64,000 nucleotides of DNA from Isoetes taiwanensis (lineage: Eukaryota; Streptophyta; Lycopodiopsida; Isoetales; Isoetaceae). The translations under genes were made by a program, and so were the position numbers. Shown here in pieces: positions 9,086-64,000 of the stretch; the first letter of the stretch is position 1; each line of letters starts with the position of its first letter. Under the pieces are notes generated by a model. The model was not told the origin of the DNA, made no database searches, and saw only the letters and a list, made by a program, of their open reading frames with translations. The stretch lies in NCBI GenBank assembly GCA_021234155.1, contig JAJEKV010000006.1, positions 11,185,317 through 11,249,316 of the forward strand, given 5' to 3'.

Positions 9086-9213
9086 AGTGGCAAGGGGGTT
9101 GAAAGGTTGTAATATGTACACAGGGGGATTTCAAACACATGAAGGAAAGAAAGGAAGGAAGTATATTTTAACGTCTACGGAAAGAGATTGAGGAGGAGCT
9201 TGAGTGAGAAGCG

Positions 9214-10897
9214 ATGGGGTGGATTTCATGGGTAGCAGGGGCAGCGGTGGTATTATGGTGGATATGGAGCAAAATGGTGCAGAGAAGGAAGGGGCCAAGG
9301 CTACCGCCGGGGCCGGCCGGGCTGCCGATTGTGGGGAGCCTGCTCAGCATCAGGCCTCCGGTGTACAGGTGCTTTGCAGAATGGGGCAAAAAATACGGGC
9401 CGATCATGACTGTGAATCTGGGCGTGTACCCCAACGTCGTGTTCTCGACTGCTTCTCTGGCCGCCGAAGCTCTCAAGGCGCAGGACCACGTCCTCGGCTC
9501 CAGGCCTCCCAATATGATCGCCCAGATCATGAACGCCTCCGGTTACGACATGGTCTGGGCTCCCCTTGGCCCCGAATGGACCACTGCCCGAAAAATCTCC
9601 AACACAGAGCTCCTCTCCGCTGTAAGCCTCAAGAAATTCCGCGAGGCTCGCCTTCTCGAAGTCTCTAAACTCGTCCACGAGATCCAAAACAGAGTCTCCA
9701 ATTCCAATTCCAATTCCAGGGACCCAATTGTTATCCGCCATCTCCTCTGGAACGTTGTCATCAATAATATGTCTGAGATGGTCCTCGGCAAACGCTATGT
9801 TCCCAACGACCCCCAGGCGCAGGAAATCCGTAGCATCACCACTGACCTCATGCGCCTTGCAAGCCTCTTCAATATCGGCCAGTTCATCCCTTTTCTTCGT
9901 AAATTGGACCTCCAGGGATCCGAGAAGCTGGTTCGAAGCATCAAATCTCGCATGAATTCCGTTGTCGATGCTCTCGTTTCAAACCACAAACCAAATCAGA
10001 ACCAGGGGTTTCTCGACACTCTGCTTCGGCTTCAGGATACGTATCACATGAACCACCAAACTGTGGGAAATCTGCTTTGGGTAAGTAAATATTTTTCCTG
10101 CTAGTTTTCTTCGATTGCATGCTATTTAAAATTTTGTATTCCTTCACAGCGACTTTTTTACATAGAACAGTGTTTTGAAAACCAAATGCACAGTATCATC
10201 AAATTCAAAACGCTATTCTATTCTTCACGTTTGATTACTTTAATCGGGCAATACATAACGGATTGTGGTGTATTTATTTTTTCCGTGTCAGAACATGATG
10301 GCCGCTGGAACAGACACCATAGTTTCAAGCACAGAGTGGACTATGGCAGAGCTTCTCACCCACCCCGAGAAACTCGCCCGAGCAAAAAAAGAGATCGCCC
10401 AAATCGTGCCACGTGGCAAGCTCGTGGACGAGGATGACGTGGACAAGCTAACCTACCTTCAATGGTCTTACAAAGAATCCCTCCGCCTCCACCCCCCCAC
10501 CCCCATGTTGCTCCCACATTTCAGCACTCAGGATTGCAAGGTTGCTGGCTATGACATACCCGCCCGCACTGTTGTTCATGTCAATGCCTTCGCCGTCCAC
10601 AGGGATGCATCTGTTTGGGACAATCCTGAAGAATTTTTGCCTGAGAGGTATGAGACGGAGGACGTCGACATGCGCGGCTCTGACCTCCGCCTCATACCCT
10701 TTGGTAGCGGCCGTAGAGTCTGCCCTGGACTACGCTATGCCATCATTGCTGCTACTCTTATGCTCGCCAATTTGATCCATCACTTTGAGTGGTCTCTCCC
10801 TTCTGGAACATCACCTTCTGATGTAGATATGGTGGAGGATTTTGGTATTGTCCAGGGCATGCGTACTCCAATATCTGCAGTTGCTTCCACTAGCTAA
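9214..10897 (+). CDS. Cytochrome P450, A-type (71 clan), CYP98-like; copy A
   Basis: Two exons, 9214-10080 and 10292-10897, joined by a phase-0 GT-AG intron, encode 490 residues, a normal plant P450 length. Residues 3-19 form a hydrophobic ER anchor, followed by a basic stretch and the hinge PPGP at 31-34. The I-helix AAGTDT is at 293-298, the K-helix ExxR (KESLR) at 350-354, PERY at 406-409 and the heme loop FGSGRRVCPG at 426-435 with Cys433 as iron ligand. The C-terminal third (VDMRG...RLIPFGSGRRVCPG and GMRTPISAVA near the end) recalls CYP98 enzymes, which hydroxylate p-coumaroyl esters in phenolic metabolism. The N-terminal half is less close, so substrate and subfamily are open. All catalytic motifs are intact. 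It is a monooxygenase expected on the ER membrane using P450 reductase. A near-identical copy lies 9.9 kb downstream. Confidence 0.93.
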
Positions 10898-18870: not shown

Positions 18871-19155
18871 GTCACTGCTTTATATATGAATGAAAATAGT
18901 CAACTTAATTGGGAGAGGGAAGAAGAACGAGTTAATTTTGACATGTTGTGGTTAATATACAGCCTAGAATAGAATATGCGGTTGAAAGGTTTGTTCATAC
19001 GAGGGGGACAAGTGGCATGGGGGTTGAAAGGTTGTAATATGTACATTGAAAGGTTGTAATATGGACACAGGGGGCAAGGCAAGCGAGCTGATACAGTGTA
19101 TTTGAAACACAAGGTATAGAGGAAGAGCTTGGAGGAGGAGCTTGAGTGAGGAGCG

Positions 19156-20825
19156 ATGGGGTGGATTTCATGGGTAACAGGGGCAGCGGTGGTATTATGG
19201 TGGATATGGAGCAAGATGGTGCAGAGAAGGAAGGGGGCAAGGCTACCGCCGGGGCCGGCCGGGCTGCCGATTGTGGGGAGCCTGCTCAGCATCAGGCCTC
19301 CGGTGTACAGGTGCTTTGCAGAATGGGGCAAAAAATACGGGCCGATCATGACTGTGAATCTGGGCATCTACCCCAACGTCGTCTTCTCGAATGCTTCCCT
19401 GGCCGCCGAAGCCCTCAAGGTGCAGGACCACATCCTCGGCTCCAGGCCTCCCAACATGATCGCCCAGATCATGAACGCCTCCGGCTACGACATGGTCTGG
19501 GCTCCCCTCGGCCCCGAATGGACCTCTGCTCGAAAAATCTCCAACACCGAGCTCCTCTCCGCCTCAAGCCTCAAGAAATTCCGCGAGGCCCGCCTTCTCG
19601 AAGTCTCCAAACTCGTCCAAGAGATCCAAAACAGAGTCTCCAATTCCAATTCCAGTCCCCCAATTGTTCTCAGGCATCTCCTCTGGAACGTTGTCATCAA
19701 TAATATGTCTGAGATGGTCCTCGGCAAACGCTATGTTCCTAACGATCCCCAGGCGCAGGAAATTCGTAGCATCACCACTGATCTCATGCGCCTTGCAAGC
19801 CTCTTCAATATTGGCCAGTTCATCCCTTTTCTTCGTAAATTGGACCTCCAAGGCTCCGAGAAGCTGGTTCGAAGCATCAAATCTCGCATGAATTCCGTTG
19901 TCGATGCTCTCGTTTCAAACCACAAACCAAATCAGAGCCAGGGGTTTCTCGACACTCTGCTTCGGCTTCAGGATACGTATCACATGAACCACCAAACCGT
20001 GGGGAATCTGCTGTGGGTAAGTACATATTTTTCCTGCTAGTTTTCGTCGATTGCATGCTACTTGGAATTTTTTATTCCTTCACAGCTAGGAGTGTTTTGA
20101 AAACAAATGCACAGTATTATCAAAACGCTATTCTATTCTTCAGGTCTTCAGGTTTGATTAGTTTAATCAGGCAATAAATAACTTAACGGATTGTGGTGTA
20201 TTTATTTTGACCGTTTCAGAACATGATGGCCGCTGGAACAGACACCATAGTTTCAAGCACAGAGTGGACTATGGCAGAGCTTCTCACTCACCCCGAGAAA
20301 CTCGCCCGAGCAAAAAAAGAGATCGCCCAAATCGTGCCACGTGGCAGGCTCGTGGACGAGGATGACGTGGACAAGCTAACCTACCTTCAATGGTCTTACA
20401 AAGAATCCCTCCGCCTCCACCCCCCCACCCCCATGTTGCTCCCACATTTCAGCACTCAGGATTGCAAGGTTGCTGGCTATGACATACCCGCCCGCACTGT
20501 TGTTCATGTCAATGCCTTCGCCGTCCACAGAGATGCATCTGTCTGGGACAATCCTGAAGAATTTTTGCCTGAGAGGTATGAGACGGAGGACGTTGACATG
20601 CGCGGCTCCGACCTCCGCCTCATACCCTTTGGTAGCGGCCGTAGAGTCTGCCCTGGACTCCGCTATGCCATCATTGCTGCTACTCTTATGCTCGCCAATT
20701 TGATCCATAACTTTGAGTGGTCTCTCCCTCCTGGAACATCACCTTCTGATGTGGATATGGTAGAGGACTTTGGTATTGTCCAAGGCATGCGTACTCCAAT
20801 ATCTGCAGTTGCTTCCACTAGCTAA
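19156..20825 (+). CDS. Cytochrome P450, A-type (71 clan), CYP98-like; copy B
   Basis: Exons 19156-20016 and 20220-20825 with a phase-0 intron at the same place as copy A encode 488 residues. It differs from copy A by scattered substitutions and by a two-residue shorter serine/asparagine stretch near residue 170. ER anchor, PPGP hinge, AAGTDT I-helix, ExxR, PERY and the heme loop FGSGRRVCPG (Cys431) are all intact, so both copies should be active enzymes. Introns and 3' flanks also match copy A closely, which points to recent duplication or gene conversion. The upstream region lacks the 185-base repeat and the second 45-base repeat seen in copy A, so expression may differ. The substrate cannot be read from the sequence. 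Confidence 0.93.
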
Positions 20826-26589: not shown

Positions 26590-27050
26590 GCCTTTTTAGA
26601 CTTGCGAGTCGAAAGGCCCTCAAACTTGCATTTTTAAACTTTGTTTTTGCCTTTCTCGACTTCGCTTGGTCGAAAAGGTCAAGCAACTGCCGGTTTTATG
26701 GGTCGGAAGGCCTTGAGTCGAGAAAGGCCTTCGACCCATAAAACCTGCGTTCGGCTTTTGAGCTGCCTTTCGATTTCGCCCAGAGAAAGGCTTCCGACCC
26801 ATAAAACCTGCGTTTACGGCTTTGGTACGCCTTTCTCATTTCGCGGTCGAGAAAGGCCTTTCCGACCATAAAACCCTGCGTTTTTCGCTTTTTGAAATTT
26901 TGCCTTTTCGACTCGCGAGTCGAGAAAGGCCTTCCACCACTAAAACTTGCATTTTTGCTTTGGTGCGCCTTTCTCGACTTCATGAAGTCGAGAAAGGCTT
27001 TCGACCCTAAAACCTGCGTTCTTCCCTCCGATTTGCCTTTCTCATGCCCT
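26590..27050. repeat. Minisatellite with internal hairpins
   Basis: About six imperfect units of 60-75 bases. Each holds a GCCTTTCTCGACT stretch facing AGTCGAGAAAGGC, then a phrase like CGACCCATAAAACCTGCGTT. The facing phrases make a hairpin in most units, for example GACTCGCGAGTC near 26919 and GACTTCATGAAGTC near 26975. The units have diverged, and no spacer pattern suggests a CRISPR. Confidence 0.8.
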
Positions 27051-41689: not shown

Positions 41690-44253
41690 ACTTAAGCGCG
41701 GTACAAGGCACCCACTTAGCGCCTTCTCTTGCACGATGCTTTCGGAAGATGGAAAAAGCGGTTGTCAATTAACCATAAGAATTGGACAAGGCTGCCCCCT
41801 GGCTCCCTACCTCTTTATAATTGCTGCTGAAATTCTTACTAAAATGGTCCTCTCTTACCAAGATAAGGGTGTGCTCCATGGTCTTCAAATGCACGATTCA
41901 ATAAACGGCTTTCCATTCTTCAATATCTTGATGATACCTTTACCATGCTCGGAGTGATAATGACAATATGAAGAATTTTATGGTGCATCTCTAAATTTAG
42001 TCTTGCCTACGGGATCCACGAATTTTGCCAAATGCTCCATCCTAGGTGATGGCTCGTATCGGACCTTAATACACATGGCATCAAATTTGTTCCTAATGGC
42101 CAATACCGACTCTTTTAGGCCTCCCCCTTGCAGTTCACATGTCCCATAAGATTGCTTGGCGACCTCTCGATTAATAGGATCGGGGAAAAAGCTTATCCTC
42201 CTTAAAGGTTCTTTATCTCTGGTGGGAGGATTTTGATTGCCAACTCTGTCCTTGCTAGTAGCCATGTCTATTTCTCTTTCTCGCTTTGATTCTTGACAAG
42301 GCTTCCTATAACAAAATTGAGCAATGTATTAAAGAGTATATTTGGCAAGGTACACATCTTTCGCTTGGGATCGGTGACTCATAGTAAAAAGTCGGGGGTT
42401 TGGGATGTAAATCCTTATTTCTCCGAGCCCAAGTGCTTGGGGCCAAAAATGTGTGGAAAGCCATCTCGGTTTCCAATCTCCGCTATGGATTTTATTAGGT
42501 TACCGGATTAATAAAAAGTAAACCCTTAGGAAGTCCCTCCCTTAAGCACCAGCTCCCAGATTACACTTTCTATGAGTTCAAATGTGCGACTAATACTTCT
42601 CCTCTCCTTAGAAGTATCTTTAAAGCATGGGAGAAAGTGGCTGCTAACTTTACTCATGACAAATTGTCCAATTCGATGTGAGAGATACTTCCATATTACG
42701 GTCTCTGTGATGGCCCCTCCCTCCTACTCTGCTATGGCTGCTCTGTCACCCTACATGTTACAAAAAATGGCACTCTGCTAATATTTTGCATGTCGAGACC
42801 TCATTGATGATGAGGAAAATTGGATTCCTTGGGAAATGATTAAGAAGAAAGTTGGAGGGGGTGCTACTCACAGATCGATTTATAAGAAAGTGGTGCTCAC
42901 CTACTCCCCTTTCTTAGGCAAAGATGGCAAGGGGGAGAGTCACTCCCCCCTGAATTGGTTTTTCAAGGTTAAAAGGAGCTACAAAGTATCTAAGATTTAC
43001 CATGCATGCCTTCCCCAGAAAAGCAGAAAGCATGCCTCTCTCCAGGGCTTATCTTCCAAGAATTTCAAGAAAATTCTCCAGTCTAGCTGGAAATCCTATG
43101 CTTGCCCTAAGATAAAAGTGTTCTCTTGGCTCATCCTGCACAGTGCTATCCTGAGTAACACTAACATGATCAAGAGAAACTTTAAGACTGTCCATAGTGC
43201 CCTCTGCCAGCTCTGTAACAATCATGATGAATCTGTGCTACACATTTTCACTTGCCAAAGGATCCAGGACTTTTGGAGATGGTTGACTCGGTCGGGCCTG
43301 AAAATCCCTGATTTCGATTCCATAACCAGTATTTCTCAATTCTTTTCAGCTCGAATTCCGGTGTCAATTATGCGGTCCTACAACTAGCCCTCTGGATTGT
43401 TTGGAAACATAGGAATAATGTGGCTCGGCAAGCGGGGAAGTGTGACCTTAATTGGATGAAGCTCAATTTCCAATTTGAACTTATTAGATGTGCTATGGCT
43501 CATAAAGCCCTTAAATTGGAGAAGTTTGATACGGATTGGTTGAATTGGGGCTCCTTCAAGTCTACTTTCTTTACTATTCATTCTGACTCTCTGATTGACT
43601 TGAATGCCTTTGTGGATTGCAGCCTTTTTGAACAGTGTGGTTCAGGTATTCAGGGGATCAATCCTACCGGATGATGTTCCTACCCACCATTCAGGGACGC
43701 CTCGTCAAGCTGTCAGAGCTACGTTTCGGCTTAAATTCTTGCTGAAGGAAGCATACAATGCACACATTCTCCACAAGTTCATTGGAGCCAACAACCGGCT
43801 TCTTACTGAAAGGCAGTTCTCTTGCTTGCGGTCTATGTATTACTACCATAAAGGCAGATGTGAGGCTGCAGCTGGTGTGTTATTGGATATTATCCAGGTA
43901 CCCATTGAAGAGTTACTGCTGCTGACCCCCTCGAAATTTGAGATTAATTGGATGGCCCCCCCTTGCTTTTCAATGCCCCTTAATGCTACACACTCTTTCC
44001 CTGATCTTCCCACTATCCCGGATTCTCTACTGAACTTATCCCCTACCCCAGGTTCTGCTGCTCCCCTACCAGTTTCCCAAAACTCATCTCCCCCCATCCC
44101 CAGCATATGGTCGTGAAGATGATCTGTTTTGTGAGGACTTTTCTCGTTGCCAATGGACAATTGGTTACTTTGTTTATATTTAATTTTCTCTGATATGGGC
44201 TTTGAGCCTTATTTTGTATGTACTTAAGTTATGATTAATATAATCCTTCCTTT

Positions 44254-48637: not shown

Positions 48638-51600
48638 TTAGAGGAGTTCTTTGTATACAATATTTGTTGTATATCTTGATCTGTCGACAACTTTAGAAGC
48701 ATCTCCATCCTTCGATTGAATAAGTATCTTTCTGCCTTGGATTCCTTGAGCTCTTGAGAGTGCCACATAGAGTTGTCTGTGACTAAACACTGAATTTGGC
48801 AAATACAAACCAACCATTTGCATTGTTTGGCCCTGGAGCTTGTTGATTGTCATACCAAAAGCTGGAAGCAATGAGAATTGCATGCGCTCAAACTGGAATG
48901 GGGGTTCTGCATTATTAGGCAACAAAGGAATTCGAAATATGAACACTCTGCTTCCAATATTCTTTCCAGTGACAATCTCAGCATCTATAGCACGTCTTCC
49001 TAATGCACGTATAACGAGACGAGTGCTATTGTATAGTCTCATACGTGTAGAAACAGACCTCAATAACATCACAATCATGCCAACCTTCAATGTTAAATGA
49101 TGTGGAGGCATCCCACTCGGAGTTTGCTCATTCAAAAATTCAGTAGGATAGACCCCTGCATCATTCTCATCAACAGCTCGATCGGCATTGTAATAGTCGA
49201 TAGGTGCAGCAGGCAACCACTCTGTCATCCTCTTGTTTACTTCGTCTACATCTTCATTTAGTGGCATAAGGATTGCCCTTTGCACCCAGTAGGATACACT
49301 TCTATAATTTGTTAAAATGTCGAGAAATGACACGGCTAGCAAGTCATTTAAGTCCTGCGACTTGACACCAATCTCTTCCAGAAGACGTATTACATCTGAT
49401 CCAATATTGGGAAACGTGGTTTCAAGTCCATCTCCAACTTGTAGGAGATAATCAGCAAACGCCCTTTGCTCTTCTGCATTTCTTCCCATATTGTTCATTA
49501 CTCGCATATTTATGTTGAGCTTATGTTCCTCAACATGATCCCATATGTAAAAGTACTTCAAGAAAGCATGCACAATTTGGGGTCGATTTCCTTATGGAAC
49601 CACAGATGGAAGCTGACAAAAATCTCCTCCCAAAACAACAATCAGTCCCCCAAATAAGGTGTCACATGACATCACGTCACGAAGCATCACGAAGCGTTCA
49701 TAGACATGTTTACGCATCATTGGGGCCTCATCCCATATAATCATGCAAGTTGCTCTTATCAATTTTGCCAACTCGGACTGCTTTAGAATATTGCAAGTTG
49801 ATGTATGTTTGTTGGTATCTTGAATCTTGAATGTGCAGTGCGCCCGCCCTTCAATAGAGTAGACGCAATTTCTGAAGAAGCAAAAGCAAGTGCAATGATA
49901 CCTTTGGCACGAACATAGGACAACATGGTGTTAAAAAGGAAACTCTTTCTCCAGCCGCGTGCACCATGAACAAAAAACACTTTTCCTTTTTCCAACATCA
50001 CGTGTTCATTGATCACATGGTCAAAAATAATCCGTTGATCATTATATAGGCGGTCAACATCTTCTTGTACCTCTACCATGTCTTCCTGAAAGACCTCATT
50101 CCGAAATATCATATATGGATCTATTGCACACTCGGGAAGAATGAATTCAAACTCCCTCAAAGATCATCTGATAGAATTCATATGATCTTCAATGTCGAGA
50201 AGTGTCGTGCCAAGTATCCGATCACACACTTGCACACTTTGATCCTCTGCAATCCTTCGTGCCTCATGCAAGAAGTCATCGATCATAGAAAGTTTTACTT
50301 GTTCTCACAGTTGTAGTGGATTTGATGGCGCACAATTTAGAAGGATTATGGTGAACATGTGTCGCAATTGTGGCGGCATGCCCCATGTTGCTGCTTCCTG
50401 AAGAGACTGGAGCCATTATGTGTCATCTCGAAGCATCCCACAACGAATGCAAGCTTCTTTATATGTTCACACAACTCTCCATCAAAAGAGCGTAAATCTT
50501 CAAAACTAATTGCACATGTCACGTGGGTAATATCGCTCTCCTTCTGAAGGATTAATAAAGTCCATGCGTCCAATCATGAGAAACTTCTTGTTGTTGGATC
50601 TCTTCTTTCATATTCTATTGGGTTTATCATAGGTACACTTTTTAGGAAAATCATGATAGAGCAATTGAGTAGCTTATCTCCAGATGCATTCATCTCAAAA
50701 AAAGCTATCAATGTTGTCCCATTATTTTTATTTCTTATAGTGTCCATGCTCATACCTTCCCGATAGTATACATTTTGTTGCATTAGGAGATGCACAACCA
50801 ATCTAGTGACATGAGAAAATTGTTGTTGTATTTCATAAAAGAGAATTCTCCATGATGCCTCAGAAGCTGAGAAGTAGCGTGCATTCAAGAATTGCTCAAC
50901 CTCATCATGGTTTATAATGGGTCCTCTGCTAGTAGATGTACCATCACTCGCTGATTCTAAGTTCACATTGATCATATCTGGCCCTTTGTAGACATATTTG
51001 TATAGATATTTAACGGCCTTAACAGCAGCACATACCTCAACATTGTTATATGGCACAACCCATCCCTTTTTCTCACTTTTTGGCCATCATCCCTTCTTCG
51101 GTACAATGGATATCCGTCAACAACTATTGTCTCATCTGAAAATGCACGTGGATAACGTTTTGTATACTTACCATCCTGCATGCACGGAGCATTTGGATTT
51201 CTAGCACCACATGGCACATGCATCATATTACGGGTGACCATCTCATATTCCTTAGGATACGCGTCCTTATCTGGTGTTTCAGCACAAATAATTTGATCAA
51301 TCTTTTCAGCTGTGAAGGGCTTGTCGGCCTGATCCAACATAGTCAACAAATGTACATGTGGCAATCCTCTTTATTGGAACTCAATAACATAGACTTCTGC
51401 AATTATGCGTCTGAATATACCATAATTATTTATAAGATCTACCAGCTCCTTTACTTTCATGTAGAATACTCTAACCACTAACTCTGGTCGATCACTTGGC
51501 AATTGGCCATATAACAACTCCCGCCTAATCTCTTCCCAGTTTGCATTGGCAGTCATGGTTATAAAAAGGTCCAGCCTGCCAAGTTCGCAAACGATGGACA

Positions 51601-53298
51601 TGGCATCCCGATATCGTTGGGTCATGTATCTTGGATCTCCCACATGTGAGGATGGTAATACAACTTTTCGGCCAATAGCACCTGCATCATCTCCTTCAAA
51701 TAATACCCTACAATATGTCTTTTCGAATGGTGTGTTGATTTAACACAACGAATTGTAGCCTTTCTTGTTCCATCTTTGCAAATATATCACAAATATATTC
51801 TTGAAACAACCTGCCAGCCATGTGAAGGGGAGATGCATGTCCATGATGCATGAATAGATAATATCTATAATACTCCATAATAGTTACTTTGCATCACTCC
51901 GTTCATGGGGTATTTTAAGATGCCATTCATCTGTACCATAGGAAAGAAGTAACACAAAGTGCAATGGATCATATGCTGAGTGATATGCATCTATAAACTT
52001 CAAGCCACCATCCTTAGAATGTATAATAATGTCCCTCTGACCATCTTCAGGCTTATCATCAATAGACATTAAGACAACCACCTCATTTGTAGTTGGAGCA
52101 TTATGTTGCCTCCTCACAGGGTTTTGCACGTCACAAGAAGGTATATGCAAAAAATATCCATGGTCGGATGAATACGTATAATTTTGTGCCGCACTAAGAA
52201 ATATGCTAACAAATGGAGTGAGCTCTGTCATAAGGGCTTGCAACTGCACCACAATTTCTTGCCTCAATCCATCAAAAAGGACATTTTACGTTCAATTTGC
52301 ATGTCATCACCATCCATGATGTATATCTGTGCAAATTTTGCATGCTCTTGATGCCCTTGCGGTGGCAATAGCGTTCCCATCTTATGGCACATACGGCCAT
52401 TGACCCTGAAAGTATAAGCCATACCAATAGCATTTGCCTGTGTCTCATCAATTTTCACGCCAACCGCGGCAAATGAGAATATATTATGGTACTTTCTAAT
52501 GTTCGTTCGAAAGTGATCATCAGCTATCGTTCCTCATATATAGCTCAAACAATGTCTGTGGTGGTTCTGGAATCAATGACAGCTGAATGTTTCCATCAGC
52601 ACATGCTCGACAAGTCTTTTTAACTGGGAGCTCTGCTATCCATTGCATAGCCCCACAGTATAAACATCTATAATCCATATTGCCAAGGTCATGAGGAGGA
52701 GGTAAATTCCATATCCACGCAATCTTATTGAAACTACTTTTACCAGTAGGACGTTCTGCTGGACCTGCAACTCTGTCTTCTATTCTTAAAGCTCGAATCT
52801 TTGCTTTTGATCTACGCTGCACACGTCTCTTTCTCTCCGAGTTAGTTTCACTTGCAGGGGTATCATATGAACCAACATTTGCTGTCAATTGTTTAGACAT
52901 TGTCGTGAGCCCTGGAATCCTTCTGCCAAAACCTCTTGGTTTTCTCCATGAAATTCGTATTGCAAAGCCATCACATGAGCGTCAACATTCTGCTGATCAG
53001 CTACAGTTGTTGTTGGAATGGATGGTTGACCAACATCATTGTCATATACTAACCTCAAATCTGTATGCTTTGCCTTCCTTCTGCGCTGCAAGCGTTTTCT
53101 CTTTTGAGAATCATTCTCGATTTGAGATACCTGATAAGAGGGATTACATGCCACCATATCTGGCGTTTGTTGAGGGGACATTCTAATGAGCGGAGGTTGT
53201 GAAGTAATCCCTTCATCGTTCACACACACTGCTTGCAAAGATCTGACCTTATTAGCTGTTTGTTCATCAACATTCTGACATCCTATTGCGCTTGACAT
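48638..53298 (-). pseudogene. Helitron Rep-helicase (RepHel), broken
   Basis: The reading frame is split into about ten pieces. In order on the minus strand: two Ser/Arg-rich leaders (53298-52885 and 52900-52520), of which the second ends with the zinc-knuckle opening typical of plant Helitron proteins (MDYRCLYCGAMQW ... CRAC); the Helitron-like N-terminal domain (52458-51884); the Rep part with the HUH motif (PHVHLL, about 51362-51347) and the tyrosine-rich YLYKYVYKG (about 51008-50982); then a Pif1-like helicase with a degraded Walker A (GARGWRKS, 49965-49942) and the C-terminal FGMTINKLQGQT motif near 48860. Many frameshifts and a Walker A without the usual GKT/S context show it is inactive. 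Confidence 0.85.
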
Positions 53299-53340
53299 AC
53301 CTCTTCCTAATTGCTCGCAATTTATCGAACCTGTTTCATC

Positions 53341-53799
53341 ATTTTTTTATTTTTTATTTTTTTTTAATTCTTGCTCACTTAGGGCCTTGAGGCCATGGAG
53401 CACAAAAATACACACAGAATATTCACTGTAGTTTTAACAAAAAGGCTCGATGAGCATCTACTACCTTTAAGTATAATCCTAACTCATAGCTAGAAATGGA
53501 AAGCAATGAATAAAAATCAACTACTTGAATTTTTTATTGTTCCCCGATATCCCTATATGCTTCACACTAAACATGGTTTCATTAATTAGAGAAATTTCGT
53601 TTTCTCGTTTGACAACGAAATAGGTTGTGGTCACCCCTGGGATGGTAAGAAATGATTCCTCTCAACCAAAACAAAGCGTCAATAATACTAAGTTCAGCGC
53701 GAAAAAATAAGACGCGCCATAATTTGACACCAGGCATGTAGCCCAAAGCTGTCATGACAGTAACGGAGGGGTTTGAGCATCATCACGAGTGGTCGTAAG
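53341..53799. other. AT-rich spacer between Helitron and methyltransferase gene
   Basis: About 460 bases with poly(T) at its left. No gene supported. The 5' end of the Helitron and one end of the next element should lie near here, but I could not place either. Confidence 0.4.
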
Positions 53800-53922
53800 G
53801 ATCGCCATTGCGATTCTTGCGAGAACAAGTGAAGGCAGAATACAATAAGCACATTGTGTGCATCGTGGTCAAATTACCATCTGGGGGTTGTATAACTGGT
53901 GTACAGAATCGCGACCGCGATC
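53800..53922. repeat. GATCGCG palindromes, group 1
   Basis: AATCGCGACCGCGATC at 53907-53922 and a decayed GATCGCCATTGCGATT at 53800-53815. Both lie downstream (3') of the minus-strand methyltransferase gene. Confidence 0.8.
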
Positions 53923-55981
53923 TCTGAGACTACTTTGTTTATCCAATTCAAAGTTGAGATAGCTCAAAAGCATAGTGAACAAAAGTTTAACACATACTGA
54001 ACTCAAAAAGCATAACTCGTATTGAACATGAAAACAGGTGAAAATGTTATAACAAAAAACTGTTTACAAAATGCTCAGCACAAAGGCGAAGCTACATCAC
54101 TGAGTCTCAAATACAGTCTCTGGATCAATACCATGTTGAGCAGCTATTCTTGCAATATGCTCCTTTCCAATAGCAATGGTCTGTGACAGGTCCATTTCTG
54201 TATATCCAGTTTTGTCTGGGATGTCAACATCCATTGCCCGTGCTGCGTTCTGAACACGCTCTGACATATCTTGGCTATTAAACAATTCATCCTGCAATTG
54301 CTCAGAATATTCATTACAGGGTACCAGCTTCTGCCTTTTAGGTGAAGGGTCGGGGGAGGTTCTCCCACTTCCGGAGGCGGCTTCAGAAGTGCCCACATAC
54401 TCAAAGTTAGGAAGGGGCTTGTCCAGTTGCTTGGATAGCAGTGGCATTATAGTGTCGAAGTTCTTGTTCAGGGCTCCTTGATCCTTTCTTCGAAGCTTTT
54501 ATGATCCAGGCCTTCTAGTATCTGTTCCATGTTGCTGAGATCCGTTCCCTGTGTTATATTAATATCAGGCTTGTCGGAACCTTGTTCTTCACGTTGCTCA
54601 TCTTGCTCTTCACCTTCCTCTTCCATGTCAGGCCTTGCCATTTTCTCTAGAATCTCGAAGAAAGATCTAAGGAAACGGCATACCTTGTCGTCAAACTCAA
54701 AAGCAACACTCCGTTTTCCTTGCATCAACGCCACCCTTGAGGCACTTCCGCCTGAGAAGAAATCCAAAACGCAACCTTCTAATGGTACCAGCTCCTTCAC
54801 TATATAATAGACATAAGAGGTTTTTGCCGGCTCTTAAGCGAAGTCGCCTTCCATAGCTGCCCATTTGAATTTGGGTTTACCACGTAAAGAACTCAAATAC
54901 TTTCTTTTTTGTTTTGCATCTACTTCTTCGCCGCCCGGTTTTTGGATATTTTGGAAGAGGAGTGCTTTGTGGTGCTTTAGTGACTTGAGTGAGTCGCGGC
55001 TCAAGTTGGGTTTAACGGGCAAAGACCGAACGTCACTCCTGTTTTGTCACATGGTGACATAATCTTTGGAATTCTTTTATATTTTTTTTGCTCTCCCAAC
55101 CTTTCTCTTCATAAGCCCCTAGGGAAACATGGGAGCTACCTTGTATCTGGCTAAGACTGTACAAACAGTTTGGCAAATGTACCGATCTGAGAAACATGAC
55201 AATATGGTACACTTTTGCATGTGTCATGCACCGCAACTGCTAAAAAATCGTGTATTTTTCACATCCATTGTGGTGGAAAAACTACGCATGTCTACAAAAA
55301 TCAACCGGCATTTTTCGACACCGTCGCGGAACACACAAGGATGCCACTTTTTGTTACGTGCTGCACGATGTTTTGCTTCTCTTTCATTTTCCGGGCCTCA
55401 TCTGGCCTCATTATAGCAAAAATAGCTTCCAAAAAAACTGCAGGCAGATTACCTTGAACTGCCTCTTTATTATAGTTTGCTTTGACGTATTCGAAATCTG
55501 TGTCTGCAATATCCAGGAGACGTTGCTCAGACAGCTCTGGAAAACATGAAGCCAACTCTTCAAAATTATTGTACATCTTCTCTGAGATAGAATTGGCGTA
55601 TGATAACACTTCACGATGCATGAGTGAAAGTGTTCTGATGTCTAGAGCCCTCTGACTGCAATTAAAACGTCCTGTATACCCCTGCTGCACTTTCAAGAAA
55701 ACCTTGCCCTGTAAGATTTCGTCCATCAACTGGCTTACCTCAGCATTGTTCATTCCTCGTAGGTTTCTCAGGAATGTCTTGTTGAAGAATTCTTTTGAAG
55801 GTTTATCTGGTAATTCCCCCTGATCATCAGTGAGCTTTCGGCTTGCCCAATTGTTGACAACTTCTACGAGTTTAGACCAGGCAGATTCTTGCATAAATAG
55901 GGCGCTTCTCATCCTTCGGTTCCTTAACCTTGAGTTGTGGTAGCCACCTCCACAAAATCCGCACCTGAAAAATTTGGTTAG

Positions 55982-56439
55982 GATCGCGGACGGCGATTTT
56001 CACGAGCAAAGAAACGAATAACATACCTTCCAGGCGGATGTCACTGCAGTTCCTGTTGGCCCTTGTGGAGGACATCCGAATGCCTTATGCTGGTTTCTTA
56101 GTTGTTGGAGCTTCTCAATCAGTGGTTCTTTGTATACTGTATCTGCGATGACGTCGTTGCACTGTATGGAAATCTGAATGTATTCTTTGTTGGAGAGGTT
56201 ACCATTTAATACACGACTTCTTCTTTTTAAATATGCTTTCGCAAATTCCAACCTTTGCTCGACATTGCCCACGCATGTGCATAAAAACTGTGCAGCAAAA
56301 ATGCTGTGTTTACCAGAAATAATATAAATTTTTTTGTTTGCCAATTCTTCTGGGCTTGACCAAGTGACTAATTTCCTGCATGTGATCGAGATACACTAGT
56401 TAGTCCAAGAAATTGTTCACGAAGATCGCGACCGCGATC
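55982..56439. repeat. GATCGCG palindromes, group 2 (in introns)
   Basis: GATCGCGACCGCGATC at 56424-56439 and the looser GATCGCGGACGGCGATT at 55982-55998. Both fall in introns of the methyltransferase-like gene, not in its exons. Confidence 0.8.
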
Positions 56440-57752
56440 CGCTCGAGCATATTTATATATGTAACCAATATGAGAAGAAAGAAATAAATATGATGTAAAG
56501 ACCTTGTTAAAGGATCATATGGAACGAGATCGGCAGGTGTAAGAACTTCTGTCGGGTATTTCTTGAAGCTTTTTATCAGTGTCTGTACATGGTCATTTGA
56601 CCGGACTCTATGTGTCATATTAGCGGGAGCTGGTTCGCAATAAAAAATGCTGACTCTTTGGAACCAGTTTACACCCATTGGATAATATCTTTTGAACTCC
56701 TCGAGCTTGGATGTTGTCTCCTGTGCCAGTTTCTTTTCTTCATCTGGATTAAACTTCAAATCTTCTGGCATTTGGGGATCAGTTCTCGAGGCGATGATAA
56801 GTGGGTGGTAGGTCTTTGGTCTAGTGGACGAGGAAGGAGTAGAAGACGTCGAAGGTTGCGCACTGTCATCCGTGGGCGCCTTTGGAATCTTTATCCTGAA
56901 TGGCGGGATCCTCTTTGATGGCTGTCCTTCTAGTGCGGCAGATTCTCTAGGGGAGCATTCAAAAGCATGACGGGAGCTGAAGGGTCAACTACTGCAGAAC
57001 AACCAACATTTTCCGAGGGGGCTACAGCAGTTGCTGACGGAACAACATTTGCCTCTATGGGCAATACAGTATCCTTTGTAGTGGATGGTTCGCCAATAGC
57101 CTGCAAAGGGGCCACGGATCTCTTCTTTGAAACAGCCCTGAGCCAGTTGGTGTCCATCCTTGAAGGCAGTTTGTTGTCTTTAGTAGCCTTCAAAGCAGCA
57201 AAAGGAGGTTTCTTATCAGCTGAAAGGCCTTTTCTGCACATGCTAAATCCAACAAGTATATCCCTGTTGCACTTTATACCCGACAAACTTAAGGAATCAT
57301 AGGACGGCAATATCCAGCCAAATCCCTTAGCACTAGTAGCCATCCCCTTGCCGCTTGCCGCTTTGTTGACTTTACTGGCAATCATAATGGATGGATCATA
57401 ATTATGCCATCTCAAAACGTACTCGACAAACTGCAGCCCTAGAGTATCTTCTACGCTGCAAATTATTGCATCCTGTACATTATTTTTGGTGCCTTCCCAC
57501 ATAGCAATTACTATACCTAGCTGCTCGTAATCTTCTGGACCCTTCCCATTCCTAAAGAACAAACACAAGTCCTTTCGGCGGTCTCCAGTGACATGAGGTT
57601 TTGCCTGTGCGATTTCAACACACCACTTCCTGCTTCTATCGGGAGTGACAATTCTGATTGGTTCCACATTCGGCCCGCGGAATAGTTCGAGGGCTGCAGA
57701 AGCAATTGAACACAGGTTAGATGCACAAGTATTGGAAGAAGGTGTTCGTAAG

Positions 57753-57965
57753 GATCGCGGCCGCGATCTGGTTCAACAGTTGCAAACTAATAAAGGGTGT
57801 TACCTCAGGACCATTATGTCTTTGGCAAGAAAGCGGCCGCGTTCTTCTGACCATGAGTGTTACGTTTTATATAAATCGCTCGCCACTATCGCGGCCGCGA
57901 TTGTCTTGAGCACTACCTTTCAGAAAATAGCAAAGGTCATGGTCACAACTATCGCGACCGCGATC
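57753..57965. repeat. GATCGCG palindromes, group 3 (first intron)
   Basis: Three copies in 213 bases: a perfect palindrome GATCGCGGCCGCGATC at 57753-57768, TATCGCGGCCGCGATT at 57887-57902 and TATCGCGACCGCGATC at 57950-57965. All lie between the likely first and second exons of the methyltransferase-like gene, close to its promoter. Confidence 0.9.
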
Positions 57966-58158
57966 GTAGCGACCATCTACCTATCCTAAAAAGACATGGC
58001 CGAAGCTATAGAGATACCTATGCTATAAAAAATCGCGGAAATTACCTTCTCTGAGGGCGGAGGCGCGAGACATGGTGGCGCTAGAAATTTTCTGAAGGCT
58101 TTTGAAATTTGCTGAAGGCGCTAGAAATTTTCGCGAGGCTAATGAGAAAAATGAATGC

Positions 58159-58168
58159 CACTCTTTTT
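58159..58168 (-). promoter_or_regulatory. TATA box of the methyltransferase-like gene
   Basis: The minus strand reads TATAAAAAG about 90 bases upstream of the proposed start codon at 58073, which leaves room for a 5' UTR of about 60 bases. Confidence 0.45.
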
Positions 58169-58175
58169 ATAGACA

Positions 58176-58232
58176 TCGCCATTATGACGGGCGCCATTAT
58201 GACGGACGGCGCCATTATGACGGGCGGCATAT
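58176..58232. repeat. CGCCATTATGACGG triple repeat
   Basis: CGCCATTATGACGG occurs three times in a row with small spacers, just upstream of the TATA box of the methyltransferase-like gene. It could be a regulatory repeat or simple slippage. Confidence 0.7.
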
Positions 58233-58511
58233 TCCCCCATTACCCCTAAAAGCAACCCCCAGCTTAGCAACGTACGGGACGGTCACACGTGAGAATTTTT
58301 GTGAGAGTGACTGTGGGGCAGTCAGTTTAAATTGGATAGGGACAGGCGCATTAGGGCATAAGAAGGTCCCGCCCGTCTTACCGCATTTGAAATTCAAATC
58401 AATTTCAAATGCAGTAAGACCCTCACACAATTTCATTCTTGCAAAGTTTGGGAAGAAGTTGTTCGAGGCGCCTGAGTTAATTTGGAGGCGCTATGTTGGA
58501 TTACAATGGCG

Positions 58512-58830
58512 CTTCGATGAATTTCAAAGCATCCAAGCATATTTCACATTGTAGAATTCATTGAAGGCCAAAGACAGGCAAGTTCATTGATTAAACTGTG
58601 TTTTCAGTTAAATCTGCCACATGCACCCTTTTTTTTGTCTGGTAGATGCTTGGATGCTTTGAAAGCATGAAAGCATTTTGTGTCTGGTGGATGCTTGGCT
58701 GAATTTCAAAGCATCCAAGCATATTTGACGATGTAGAATTCATTGAAGGCCAAAGACAGGCAAGTTCATTCATTAGACTGTATTTTCAGTTAAATTTGCC
58801 GCATGCACCCTTTTTTTGTCTGGTAGATGA
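58512..58830. repeat. Two tandem ~180-bp repeats
   Basis: The block AATTTCAAAGCATCCAAGCA ... TAGAATTCATTGAAGGCCAA ... TTTTTTTGTCTGGTAGATG occurs twice with a period of about 181 bases. Non-coding, in the space between the two divergent genes. Confidence 0.8.
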
Positions 58831-58960
58831 AATCCCATTCTAATTTGGTTATATAGATTGCCTGTATCAAAAATTCTTAAGATGTTCCTGTTTGTAGGCG
58901 TTGATGTCATTCATCTTCCAGCGATCTGGTGATTCTTGAGGCCTGACTAGCGATCATCGG

Positions 58961-59224
58961 GATCGATGAAGGCGATCTTTCCGAACATATTCTAGACCCA
59001 TCAAGGGTTATTGATTCATCTACTTCTCCCGTAGGTCGTCCCTACGACACAGCTAGTGCTCGTCCGGATCGCGAAGGCGATTTTGCGCAGCATAATCGAG
59101 ACAGGTACGTATAATCTAGACTATGGTATATGCTTGATGTAGGAGATTATGTTAGCTGCTTGCTCTAGGCACGTACAATCTAGACAAGTGTATCTGCTTG
59201 CTGAAGGAGATCGCGGTCGCGATC
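58961..59224. repeat. GATCGCG palindromes, group 4
   Basis: GATCGCGGTCGCGATC at 59209-59224, GATCGCGAAGGCGATT at 59067-59082 and GATCGATGAAGGCGATC at 58961-58977. These stand upstream of the plus-strand transposase-like gene, mirroring group 3 on the other side. Confidence 0.85.
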
Positions 59225-59334
59225 CTGCTAACCATGTCCTTGCTTAAGCTTGGTCTGTCTGGCTAACGTGAAAGTGCTCTTTGACATCGTGGTGGCGTTC
59301 TCTCTGAGCAATAACGTCCATTGTGCTTGCAGAC

Positions 59335-59778
59335 ATGGCTGCCTCGAAGTCCATACTGTTCCATGGAGTCAAAGTGGGCGAGGGAAAAGTACATGCCTTC
59401 GACAAGCACCACAACTTGCCCTTGCCGAGAGATAGCATTGTAGTGTCTATGGAAGTTATTCTCAACGGAAGCATTGGTTTGCCATTTCCTGAACCGGAAT
59501 TGGCAACACTTGGGGATTCTCGAGGGAGTTTTATTTTGTGGCCAGCGCAGTGGATAGCTAACCTTACAAAAGAACCTGAAATATCCACACTGCCTGCACA
59601 GATTAAAAAAATTGATTGGCTTGGGTTGCAAGCACCGGAAAGCCCTTCCGTGAATAACCTTCGAGGCATTTCAAGGGACGAGCTAGTAGAGAAAAGTTGC
59701 ACACTACTCCATGATCGGCGCAACATCCCGTATGCCCTTGGGGTGATCATCTTCATTGACCCTAATCGGTATCGGTGA
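59335..59778 (+). pseudogene. DUF8039-like domain, likely N-terminal part of the transposase-like gene
   Basis: ORF of 147 codons from MAASKSILFHGVKVGEGKVH. The stretch VVSMEVILNGSIGLPFPEPE ... GSFILWPAQWI resembles the DUF8039 domain found next to transposase-like regions in plant proteins. The frame ends after FIDPNRYR, and the sequence goes on in another frame (MRLGEDYLASNHNEDIPYAD...), so a shift of one base or a lost splice separates it from the downstream part. The head-to-head neighbour on the minus strand starts about 1.3 kb away. Confidence 0.5.
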
Positions 59779-60192
59779 CATGAGATTGGGAGAAGACTAC
59801 TTGGCAAGCAACCATAATGAAGACATTCCCTATGCGGATAGGCCGACCATGCGATGCCAAGCATGTCTTTGAAATGCCACAGTTGCACGACCTGGTGAGG
59901 TGGCCGATTGCTTTGGTGTTAGTAGACAATGTTGCGTTGTGTCAACACTCATAAAGACTGCGAAACATACAGTCGTTGAAGCAGAACCCTATGCCATGCA
60001 AATTGAGCCTGAAAAGGCAACAAAGAGGGGCGTACACAATGGTGAACCCGGACCCCACGTTCACCCTCCGCGGGCCACTAAAAGCTGAGAGAAAAATCAC
60101 GGCAACTTCCATTTCGGACTTCAAGTCTCGCCATTTCTGCTTGCATCGCGAAGATCTTTGCGCAAACTTCTCAACGGCCCGAGATTGCGTGT

Positions 60193-62453
60193 ATGCGTAG
60201 GTTCTACTGGAACTTGCGAGCTTCAGACAGGACCACATTTGTTTTCAACATGTTAGACGTCTGTTCACAGAACGGCCTGGTGCAGAAGCTAATGCTAAAT
60301 AATAAGCAGGTTTGCTTGAAAGCATGGCATAGAGCCTATGGTATTCCAATGTCCACATTCTATAAGTGGCGAAGACTTTTCCTTGCTGGTCACAGAGTTG
60401 CTGAGCATGGTAACATGGGCACGAAAAAGCCGAGGCCTCACACTCTTGCCGGGAAGGCCATACTCTCTATGTACATAGATGAGAATGCAGAGACGATGCC
60501 CCACAGATCGAAAATCACTACTGAAGGGGTGAGAGAGAATGTCAAGAGGCTCCCCTCTGTCCTAACTAAAAAGGACATTCTTCAAGAGGTGGACGCCAAT
60601 GTGATGGAGATGACGGGCAAGCACATCTCACATTCTTCATTCTCACGTGGGTGGAAGCAAAATCACCCAGAGGTTGGAATAGCAAAGAGGACAGCTTTTT
60701 CCAAGTGCAATACTTGTATTGTAATAAAAGAGAAAATGGCTAAAACCAGAGATCCACGGGAGAGAAGAGAATTGCAGATGGAAAGGAAGGAACACATGAC
60801 AGCCCAGATCTCTTGTAGGAGCTTGTACTGGTCATGGAGAGCTTTGTCCCACCGATCACCGGACCAGGCGCTCACTATCATACATGATAAGATGGACCAA
60901 AACAAGACTATGATTCCAAGACTAGAGAAATTAGCGAAATCGGTATGGAGAGGTGAACGCTTGAAAGTTAAGCGTGGTGGTGCAGCGATGCATGGCCATG
61001 GCACGGGTGCCTTAGGACATTTCTCACTTTCGACCTTTGGAAGGATGATTCAAATTTTCATGTTGGTTCCTTGAATCATGCTATCAAAACACTGGAGGAC
61101 ACCAGAAGACAATTGGGGCCATTTGAGAGAAGAATCGGCACCGAGGGAATGTGGGGAACCGCACTACTAAACAGTCTTGGGGTTGAGGACAAAAAAACAA
61201 TACCTTTGGGGTAGACTTTGTAGCACCTCCTAAGCGGCCAGCCAAGTTAAGAGGTTACCTCGGTGGCTCTACTTATGACTAGACAATCATGCAAGTAACA
61301 AGAACAGATATCTCTTCTCTTATCTATCCTATCTTGTGTGGTTGGGTGTTTTTGATCAAATACAGGTTGGCTTCATGATGGTAGGCCACACTCATGATGA
61401 CATTGATGCGCTCTTCGGTAACTATTCAACGTTAATGCGCAGGTCGGATGCTCTAACTATTCCAGAACTAATGCAACTCTTCCGAGAGTGTAGCACGAAG
61501 GCACCGACACCATACCTTGTTACCGAGGTTCCCGATTGGAAGGGGTTCATAAAAGGTTACATTCCTGATAAGAAGGACCGTTTGGTTGGTCACTTGGAGC
61601 CCTTATTATTCAAGTTCTGCATGAATGAAGGGTGGCCATTAATGTATTACAAGATGAGACCTGGTCATAGAGAATGGTTGCCAGAAAAGGGTATTCGGAT
61701 GTGGAAAGCAGATGACAATGGTTTGCCAAAAATACCAATTGGCTCGCCCAAGACTGTCAGGCCATATGCATGCCTCAAAGACATAGGAGCATTGAGGTCG
61801 CCCATTGGAAGTACATGATGCATTGGGCTAACATCTCCGTGGCTGGTGTGAACTTCGTGGTCTAATACCTACATGAAGCGAGGTCATGGACTCTTGGTCT
61901 TGCGGTGATGCGTGTGCTAGGTGAAGTACCCCGGGCAATCCGAAATTCAGAACTTCCGCCTCAAACAAGGCAGGTTGTGCTTCAAGAGCCTGAATCTATT
62001 CAGGTCGATCCATTTGACGCTCCGGCTACCTATGTTGGACCTGCTAAGGATAAACCCAAGAATGCAGTGGAGATATTTGACCCATACCAAGATGTACAGA
62101 AAGGTATGTTTCTTCTTGTAAGACCAGCAGATGCATGTCCTACATGGGTAGCGTATGCGGAAGAGGATCCAATACAAGATCCCACTGCCCCTCATTATAA
62201 CGAGGTTTTTGTTTCTTGGTGGGAGCCTGTGGCTAGGAAAGGCACCCCGTACGCTCAACAGTATCGGGACTGCTGGCATAAAAAGTGGAGGCCGAATCCT
62301 AATGACAGACCACGTTATCAGCCTCTCAAAACGATAGACTATGCTTGGTTTGTGGAACCGAAGCCATTAATGGTTGTGATACCTCCTATTGTAGGAATCC
62401 AGCTGCAAGAATTGCTTGCTAAAGAGGCATCTGATGATGGAGATGAAACTTGA
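60193..62453 (+). pseudogene. DUF7869-type transposase-like protein (decayed)
   Basis: First ORF, 60193-61074: a helix-turn-helix-like region (AYGIPMSTFYKWRRLFLAGH), a CxxC pair (SKCNTCIVIKEKM) and HDKMDQNKTMIPR, an acidic motif expected at the start of an RNase H-like fold. From about 61287 another frame has LDNHASNKNRYLFSYLSYL, leading into the 61336-61818 ORF with VGHTHDDIDALFG, a signature I associate with DUF7869. A TGA stands two codons before the LDN motif. A frameshift near 61790 and a TAA at 61863-61865 interrupt the passage to the last ORF (61905-62453), which carries FLLVRPADACPTWVAYAEE and VFVSWWEP, a small chromo- or Tudor-like module. Order and motifs suggest a DDE-type transposase of an unnamed plant family, now inactive. 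Its exact superfamily is open. Confidence 0.6.
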
Positions 62454-62632
62454 GTGTTACAGGTACATTAAAGCATCTCACACTTTTTATTATCCATAAC
62501 ATCACTACAATAGACTATTTATTATTCATTACGTCTTGCATTTTTCATCTTAACACAAGAGCTCTTACACTATAACATGTTGAACAGGTGATTCATTCAT
62601 CTTCGGGATCTGTAGTAGTGATCCCTGATATC
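62454..62632. other. Short spacer
   Basis: AT-rich 3' flank of the transposase-like gene. No terminal inverted repeat recognised here. Confidence 0.4.
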
Positions 62633-62833
62633 TCATAGCTCATGCGCGGGAAGCCAAATCGGATGGATCATCACACTAATTGATTTGAGGCGCGAATCTC
62701 GGCCGCCCAAAGCTTTTCTTCGCAGGTAGGGATCAAGAAGAAGATGCCTGTCTAGGCAACCAACAAGATCAGAGTGGCTCATTGAGCACTTGATCGCCTC
62801 GATGTGGTTAACTGATGAAGGCGAAAAATCCAT
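62633..62833 (-). pseudogene. Small ORF paralogue 1 (frame-shifted end)
   Basis: 66 codons beginning MDFSPSSVNHIEAIKCSMSH. It aligns with the ORF at 63209-63451: HIEAIKCSMSHSDLVGC against HIRSFKCYLSYNDLGEC, LDPYL against LDPWL, and WLPAHE against WLPYQE. After that the frame ends, but the next frame gives YEISGITTTDPEDE against YELNGITSFDVDDE, so a one-base change has broken this copy. The family is unknown to me. A TATA box stands 36-43 bases upstream. Confidence 0.5.
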
Positions 62834-62868
62834 GAGAGAAGAATGAACTTCAGCCCCGAAGTGAGAAG

Positions 62869-62876
62869 CTTTTATA
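62869..62876 (-). promoter_or_regulatory. TATA box of small ORF 1
   Basis: The minus strand reads TATAAAAG, about 40 bases before the start codon at 62833. The sequence CTTCACTATAAAA is shared with the second copy. Confidence 0.6.
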
Positions 62877-63208
62877 GTGAAGTAGAATTATTGAGGTGAA
62901 TTATTGGGGTTGAATTCGGCGCCATTATTGCTCGTGTATAAGACCGTTGTATAAATACAAGTTTAATACATCTTTCGTATGGATATATATATGCTTTTAA
63001 AACGTGTGCTTGAAAACATGTTTGCTTGACGAATTTAGCTATGATTGAATTCAATGACAGCTTGCAGAATAAGTGGAGGTGGGATAGCACATCGTTACAA
63101 TATACTCAGTTAAGGTACTTGATATTACATCCTTAATCATAATGCTATTACATTCTTACTTAGTTATTAGATACCCATGTCATTATTACATTATTAGCAG
63201 GTGCAGAT

Positions 63209-63451
63209 TTACTCGTCATCAACATCAAAGCTCGTGATGCCATTCAGCTCATAGATCTCCTGGTAAGGAAGCCAGTAAATATAGACTTTAACACGAGTGA
63301 GCTTCCTGCAAGCACTAGCAGGTCCGTCAGCTTTAGATAAGAGCCATGGATCAAGCTTAACGCCATTTCTAGCGCATTCGCCCAGATCGTTGTAGCTCAA
63401 GTAACACTTGAAAGAGCGGATGTGCTCTGGACGAGGCATCGAGGAAGCCAT
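63209..63451 (-). CDS. Small ORF paralogue 2, unknown protein of 80 residues
   Basis: Begins MASSMPRPEHIRSFKCYLSY and ends acidic (SFDVDDE). Conserved with paralogue 1 at HIxxxKC, LDPW/Y, WLP and GIT. I do not recognise the family, and no signal peptide or membrane segment is evident. The two lie in tandem about 620 bases apart, with matching upstream DNA (ATTATTGG and GCCATTATTG phrases), so the whole unit including the promoter was duplicated. A TATA box lies 37-43 bases upstream. Whether it belongs to the neighbouring mobile element is open. Confidence 0.55.
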   Translation of the reverse strand: MASSMPRPEHIRSFKCYLSYNDLGECARNGVKLDPWLLSKADGPASACRKLTRVKVYIYWLPYQEIYELNGITSFDVDDE

Positions 63452-63485
63452 GGAAGATGAATGGCCTCTACCCCCTCGTCAAGCC

Positions 63486-63494
63486 GTTTTTATA
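63486..63494 (-). promoter_or_regulatory. TATA box of small ORF 2
   Basis: The minus strand reads TATAAAAAC at the same distance from the start codon as in paralogue 1. Confidence 0.6.
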
Positions 63495-63730
63495 GTGAAG
63501 TAAAATTATTGATGTCAATTATTGGTGTACAATGTAGGGCCATTATTGACCTTATACGAGTGTCATGTACACCTACAAGTATAACACAAAATTTGTATGT
63601 ATATGTGTATGTTAATTACCTCATGTTTGTTGGGCTCGAGAACTAGGTGAAAGTATTCGTGCTTGAGCAAATAAGGTGTGCTGAAAATTCTCAAAATTGT
63701 GTTATTTTATCCAATTAATGAAATCATGCT

Positions 63731-64000
63731 TCACTGTAAGAAAACATGTGTTTCATCCTCAACCCGGCCCGAATCACATGTTCTACAAATTCGATCTTCA
63801 AGTGGTGTCTTTGACCATCGACCTGTCTCGATTTCCAATCTGTGTGAGCTTGTCCTGTAACGGGCAATGATGTGCTTCAGGGATGTCGGCATGTCTTCTG
63901 ATAGGTATGCTTGACTCTTGTATTCATCCATATGATTGATCTGAGTTCTATAATGAAGCAACCTGCTACCTTGATGCTGCCATAACCGTTCTAGTGCCAA
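63731..64000 (-). pseudogene. C-terminal part of a non-LTR reverse transcriptase (partial)
   Basis: An open frame of 89 codons, running in from the window edge, reads SLKHIIARYRTSSHRLEIETGRW ... RICRTCDSGRVEDETHVFLQ. The Cys-x2-Cys followed by His is the zinc-binding tail found at the end of many non-LTR (LINE-type) reverse transcriptases. Its frame is open to the window end, so the rest of the element should lie beyond it. It differs from the plant L1-type tail at 43 kb. Confidence 0.6.

Follow-up and report, generated by a model that had tools for sequence, protein, structure and literature searches.

A gene in the genome of the lycophyte Isoetes taiwanensis raises an unusual question: why would a plant nucleus encode a protein that seems to join a ParB-like domain to a DNA methyltransferase-like domain, and what might such a protein do? 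The gene lies on the minus strand of a 64,000-nucleotide stretch (the window; contig JAJEKV010000006.1, positions 11,185,317 to 11,249,316), where it runs from an ATG at 58073 to a stop at 54097. A preliminary description, made from the letters alone, had seen a plant transposon-like locus at 54097..58073. We find that the true unit (53569-63731) exceeds this locus, and that the methyltransferase-like gene is one half of a complete DNA transposon bounded by terminal inverted repeats (TIRs), in which it stands as an accessory gene beside a probable transposase.

A complete transposon with two divergent genes

The limits of the element, and the genes within it, are as follows.

53565..53568, no strand: one copy of the target-site duplication (TSD), AGTG in gene orientation
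53569..63731, no strand: complete TIR DNA transposon of 10,163 bp, from copy alignment ends, TIRs and a 4-bp target duplication
53569..53589, plus: left TIR, of the AAGCATGGTTTCATTAATTAG type, beginning AAACATGG in the window copy
54097..55959, minus: exon 4 of the accessory gene, with a helical middle, the methyltransferase-like module (DMRS at the motif IV position; motif I VLDFFSGGSASRV) and an acidic tail
56027..56375, minus: exon 3, carrying the other half of the ParB-like region and a GKHS/GNHS box
56503..57693, minus: exon 2, an N-terminal part without a recognised fold and the first half of the ParB-like region; reading frame broken near 56935 in the window copy
58046..58073, minus: exon 1, with the ATG and ending in phase 1
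59335..62453, plus: DUF7869 gene, divergent from the accessory gene and broken in the window
63208..63452, minus: small open frame of 80 amino acids near the right end
63713..63731, minus: right TIR, AAGCATGATTTCATTAATT
63732..63735, no strand: other copy of the TSD, AGTG in gene orientation

The TIRs are about 19 bp long (AAGCATGRTTTCATTAATT) at both ends, with one change at the left end of the window copy. Alignment to the window stops no more than 20 bp from 53569 in 18 of 20 copies (L012 and L020 stop earlier). The edge at 63731 is reached, with alignment stopping there, in 3 of 20 stretches, and most of the others end short of it. Target duplications of 4 bp were identified in the window (AGTG), in L016 (ATAA) and in L023 (TAGA); for L026, GCTT fits, given one altered end base. 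Elements of the Sola superfamily have 4-bp TSDs, the length found here. L016 (4,119 bp) and L023 (8,743 bp) are shorter copies with both TIRs and the duplication, and are probably internally deleted forms. A second small frame at about 62600-62850 on the minus strand is broken by a stop and resembles the 63208-63452 frame by eye.

The DUF7869 match has an E value of 1.5e-29 for the window piece and of 1.4e-43 for a 947-amino-acid open frame in copy L009. We predict from these matches that this gene is probably the transposase, and it may be a DDE-type enzyme. The openly licensed literature that we searched contains no mention of DUF7869.

The preliminary description had left open whether the gene was domesticated or carried by a transposon. 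The TIRs, TSD and copies establish the latter, and a single domesticated gene is rejected because the sequence is multi-copy. Its view that the locus is nuclear rather than bacterial contamination stands, because of the introns, the TIRs and the matches on many contigs. Insertion of a giant virus was also considered and rejected, given the TIRs, the TSD and the DUF7869 gene; scans of viral contigs (349 and 20 pattern matches) confirmed no relative.

The accessory gene and its relatives

The four exons, the domain order and the introns described earlier are all present, the introns being backed by splice contexts in relatives. The two motif sequences singled out at the outset, IYIISGKHSIFAAQFL and LDFFSGGSASRVALM, both occur in the gene. 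The TATA box previously proposed corresponds to a candidate (TATAAAAAG) near 58170, and we presume that the gene is expressed. The window copy itself is broken by several frame breaks and has lost about 60 bp near 54470. Relatives have one long, undivided exon 4, which shows that the breaks in the window result from decay; the start of exon 4 was placed by homology to L009, as the splice site is altered in the window.

A search of the genome (1,658,258,908 bp in 1,110 contigs) with a DNA query returned 40 scored matches among 518 candidates, and a protein query returned 86 among 5,980. At L015/L029 (C1099:1627000-1631300), a copy of the element interrupts the ParB-like region of a more distant relative, and it is because of this insertion that a second, diverged group (L029) was discovered. 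A protein from this group has 27% identity to L039, and the group is likewise multi-copy: with that protein as query, 130 scored matches were obtained among 2,750 candidates. All three candidate totals are counts of candidates, not of copies. Second-group relatives (C1048:12580253 and others) have open frames of up to 614 amino acids and identities down to 43-45%, so there may be more groups than those read. In a protein database whose plant content is uncertain, no relative scored among 139, 2,409 and 7,403 candidates.

Ten diverged copies were retrieved as 4.4-kb stretches. Exons 2, 3 and 4 are all open in three of them (L032, L038 and L039; exon 1 untraced), and a segment of 444 amino acids is full length in seven of the nine copies that have it whole (L037 is short by 4 residues and L040 by 2). 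Ratios of dN/dS are 0.10-0.21, with one at 0.39, for the 12 of 45 pairs with computable dS (the other 33 are saturated), in copies selected for open frames, which may depress the ratios. In a set of 21 close copies, the substitutions that are shared give nonsynonymous to synonymous counts of 200:119 (exon 2), 23:17 (exon 3) and 121:80 (exon 4), and changes confined to a single copy have counts of 372:113, 36:14 and 131:57, where a ratio of about 2.6 is expected without selection. The substitution patterns indicate that open frames are maintained under purifying selection in several subfamilies of diverged relatives. The gene thus seems to be selected during movement of the element and to decay afterwards. 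Relatives scored genome-wide and open frames under purifying selection also mean that the accessory gene is not a product of chance.

The methyltransferase-like module

The earlier assignment of a DNA methyltransferase-like domain is supported at the level of fold. A structure model with a mean pLDDT of 61.9 points to a methyltransferase-type fold and resembles the fold of catalytic enzymes; an earlier model from fewer diverged rows (pLDDT 43.2) was uninformative. The predicted fold is consistent with the beta-class N6/N4 DNA methyltransferases of PF01555, and motif IV precedes motif I both in the alignment and in the strands of the model (174-180 and 351-355), the order of that class. Motif I (D-[FY]-F-S) is kept in all 12 rows that extend that far. 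Exceptions are DYFP in L029's own piece and, among the 21 close copies, DLFS in L027 and indels that disturb the motif in L012, L014, L022 and L024.

Sequence searches returned little. The window piece (12.8 bits) and the L010 piece (13.4) miss the PF01555 gathering score of 26.7, and neither exon 4 of L009 nor either of the two L029 pieces matches that family. PHROG 3008 (DNA methyltransferase) is matched weakly at motif I (E 0.11 and 0.028). Searches of Pfam, PHROGs and NCBIfam gave weak matches only, and those of PDB sequences gave weak unrelated ones, such as cytochrome c peroxidase.

Lacking from every relative read (14 aligned rows and 21 close copies) is the (D/N/S)PP(Y/F/W) catalytic box. 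The motif IV position is DMRS in 19 of the 21 close copies, with an indel there in the other two, and all 14 aligned rows, from three diverged groups, have D-x-R followed by W six residues past the R. In known enzymes the proline-proline-aromatic part of the box holds the target base. Thus, the DNA modification function suggested earlier is doubtful, and because D-x-R takes the place of the box, binding is the most likely mode of action of the protein, in preference to N6-adenine or N4-cytosine methylation of the ordinary kind. If the usual box is ancestral, it would have been replaced before the groups split and then retained. METTL14 and MTA9 provide a precedent for such a loss.

A palindrome repeated in non-coding DNA

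A CG-rich palindrome with four CG sites, ATCGCGRYCGCGAT, is restricted to non-coding parts of the element. There are six exact occurrences in the window, all of them within the element and outside exons.

53908..53921, no strand: ATCGCGACCGCGAT, 3' of the accessory gene
56425..56438, no strand: ATCGCGACCGCGAT, intron 2
57754..57767, no strand: ATCGCGGCCGCGAT, intron 1
57888..57901, no strand: ATCGCGGCCGCGAT, intron 1
57951..57964, no strand: ATCGCGACCGCGAT, intron 1
59210..59223, no strand: ATCGCGGTCGCGAT, intergenic, upstream of the DUF7869 gene

A near-match with one mismatch at 26841 lies outside the element. First-order Markov sequence modelled on the element contained no palindrome in 30 runs. 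The ten diverged copies hold 45 palindromes in 9,947 bp of non-coding sequence, whereas their 34,666 bp of coding sequence contain none, allowing one mismatch at most in the 12-bp core and with approximate exon limits. In intron 1 of L033, L035 and L041 the palindromes recur at a spacing of 34 bp. Intron 3 (63-69 bp) could be extracted from 21 of the 31 sequences, and in 19 of these it retains the 14 bp with no more than two mismatches. Identity between subfamilies is 0.77-0.96 for the palindrome, compared with 0.64-0.71 for the rest of intron 3 and 0.56-0.59 for shuffled DNA, in pairs limited to those with no more than two mismatches in either copy, a choice that favours the palindrome.

What the accessory protein may do

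We propose that the accessory protein recognises the element's own palindromes and keeps the element unsilenced, acting mainly by binding, and we regard the case for this as evenly balanced. The element carries two divergent genes, the DUF7869 gene as probable transposase and the accessory gene, whose product would combine a ParB-like region with a beta-class-type DNA methyltransferase fold. The protein would recognise ATCGCGRYCGCGAT as repeated in introns, intergenic DNA and the 3' end. Binding would keep the element's DNA accessible or unsilenced, in the manner of VANC, or might regulate the element's promoters. The module could bind AdoMet via motif I without ordinary methylation.

For the ParB-like region, spliced rows have a conserved R-x-R...H-V-x-T-L-x-x-S-F, then Y-x-I-x-(S/N)-G-N-H-S-x-x-A-A-Q or similar, whose Y-x-I-x-(S/N)-G-N-H-S box resembles, and aligns in register with, the VIxGHxR box of phage proteins. 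Several results count against the proposal. The earlier ParB assignment finds no confirmation in Pfam, where a ParB match is absent in all five rows, or in PDB sequences, where the region has no match. A comparison with the ParB profile by hhalign scored 14.0, a value also attained in 37 of 60 column shuffles. When three full proteins were spliced and combined into a profile, it matched the phage fusions only at E 0.74. None of the loci examined carries the ParB-like region entire; its one contiguous stretch, present in three overlapping loci, is missing the first strand. ParB identity is thus an unproven lead, strengthened only by the domain order and by published algal cases. Foldseek gave no match to the methyltransferase model at E<=1e-3, and residues 148-166 and 242-332 of the model fall below pLDDT 50, the mean being only 61.9. 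Retention of motif I is odd if AdoMet is unused. Finally, the palindrome was selected for study after its repetition had been noticed, and its true user could be the transposase or a host factor.

A more elaborate form of the proposal, which we put forward only tentatively, is that a phage-type ParB-methyltransferase fusion became a non-catalytic, AdoMet-binding, sequence-specific guard. It would cluster on CG-rich, parS-like palindromes in the element's introns and promoters, at sites otherwise open to CG methylation by the host, and so shield the element from silencing. If true, this would place ParB/parS-like logic inside a eukaryotic nucleus.

Of the alternatives to recognition by binding, the one that survives best, though we consider it doubtful, is a catalytically active protein, which would place N6-methyladenine or N4-methylcytosine on the DNA of its own element, with D-x-R as a variant catalytic box. 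The catalytic-type fold of the model, the intact motif I and the strong selection all favour activity, and for an Ectocarpus relative the authors of PMC12477816, in the sections consulted, propose that the protein both binds and modifies the sequence of its own element. However, a DPPY-type box occurs in no relative read, and the missing part is the proline-proline-aromatic one.

Alternatively, the palindromes may be sites for the transposase or a host transcription factor, with the accessory protein doing something else, such as supporting strand transfer. Transposases often bind subterminal repeats, the link between protein and palindrome is one that we only infer, and in the second group (L029) the palindrome does not appear within the 4.3 kb that were read. 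We judge this unlikely, as the palindromes crowd the accessory gene, chiefly its introns, whereas none of the six exact ones is in the DUF7869 gene (59335-62453) or at the right end. Giant algal transposons are described, in the parts of PMC12477816 consulted, as carrying genes whose use is unknown, but a captured passenger gene with no role for the element is highly improbable given purifying selection in several subfamilies and a second multi-copy group at 27% identity.

Other features of the window

Adjoining the element on the minus strand (48638-49591 and 50574-53346) are a Pif1-type helicase (Pif1_2B, E 4.2e-10) and further frames, perhaps a Helitron-like element. By blastn, the transposon shares no sequence with the window upstream of 53400. 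Two closely similar genes on the plus strand (9208-10897 and 19150-20825), the first matched as a cytochrome P450, look like a recent tandem duplication. A zf-RVT frame (42782-43387, plus) is probably the remnant of a LINE-type retrotransposon.

Comparison with known systems

The domain order matches that of phage ParB-methyltransferase fusions, as described earlier. Like the protein of Streptococcus phage Javan113, the plant protein has a ParB-like region, a helical middle, motif IV and motif I, the last in register. Unlike it, the plant protein reaches the cut-off of no family and lacks DPPY; the Javan113 protein has DPPY and matches N6_N4_Mtase at E 1.4e-28 and, slightly short of the cut-off, ParB_N at E 3e-5. 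DIRS elements, which reportedly also carry a methyltransferase domain, are another case of a eukaryotic mobile element with a domain of this type, but they are tyrosine-recombinase retrotransposons and not TIR DNA transposons.

The preliminary description knew of no such fusion in plant nuclear genomes. For land plants we found none in the openly licensed literature, but the same domain pair is reported for an Ectocarpus Sola-1 transposon, with green and red algal cases cited (PMC12477816, in part). Because such accessory proteins are already in print for algal transposons, we regard the Isoetes element as a variant of the published algal kind. Sola1-1_Ec32 is a 21.5-kb brown-algal element encoding a ParB-methyltransferase protein of 1104 amino acids, predicted to produce 4mC or 6mA (PMC12477816, same parts). 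As there, the gene here is on the strand opposite to the (here probable) transposase and has the two predicted domains, with support for the methyltransferase fold and with the ParB part unconfirmed. The differences, with the proteins compared by description only, are a size of 10.2 kb, a plant host and the presence of D-x-R where the catalytic box would be. The proposal for the algal proteins is that they bind their own DNA and modify it, and the target site is unnamed in the portions of PMC12477816 consulted. The plant family is abundant and offers many diverged copies, a conserved candidate palindrome and a consistently replaced catalytic box; thus, whether these proteins methylate or bind, and whether they protect from silencing, becomes directly testable.

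The proposed role resembles that of VANC in the VANDAL elements of Arabidopsis, likewise an element-encoded accessory gene associated with a short motif that recurs in introns and upstream regions, partly in tandem (PMC5735166, in excerpt). The arrangement of the palindromes is similar to that for VANC21, whose motif regions occupy introns of both VANC21 and VANB21 as well as DNA upstream of VANA21. The VANC motif differs (YAGTATTAY), and the same excerpt reports both binding and loss of methylation for VANC, whereas the evidence here is repetition and conservation of the motif alone. If the Isoetes protein does counter silencing, it would represent a second route to the effect that VANC has in Arabidopsis.
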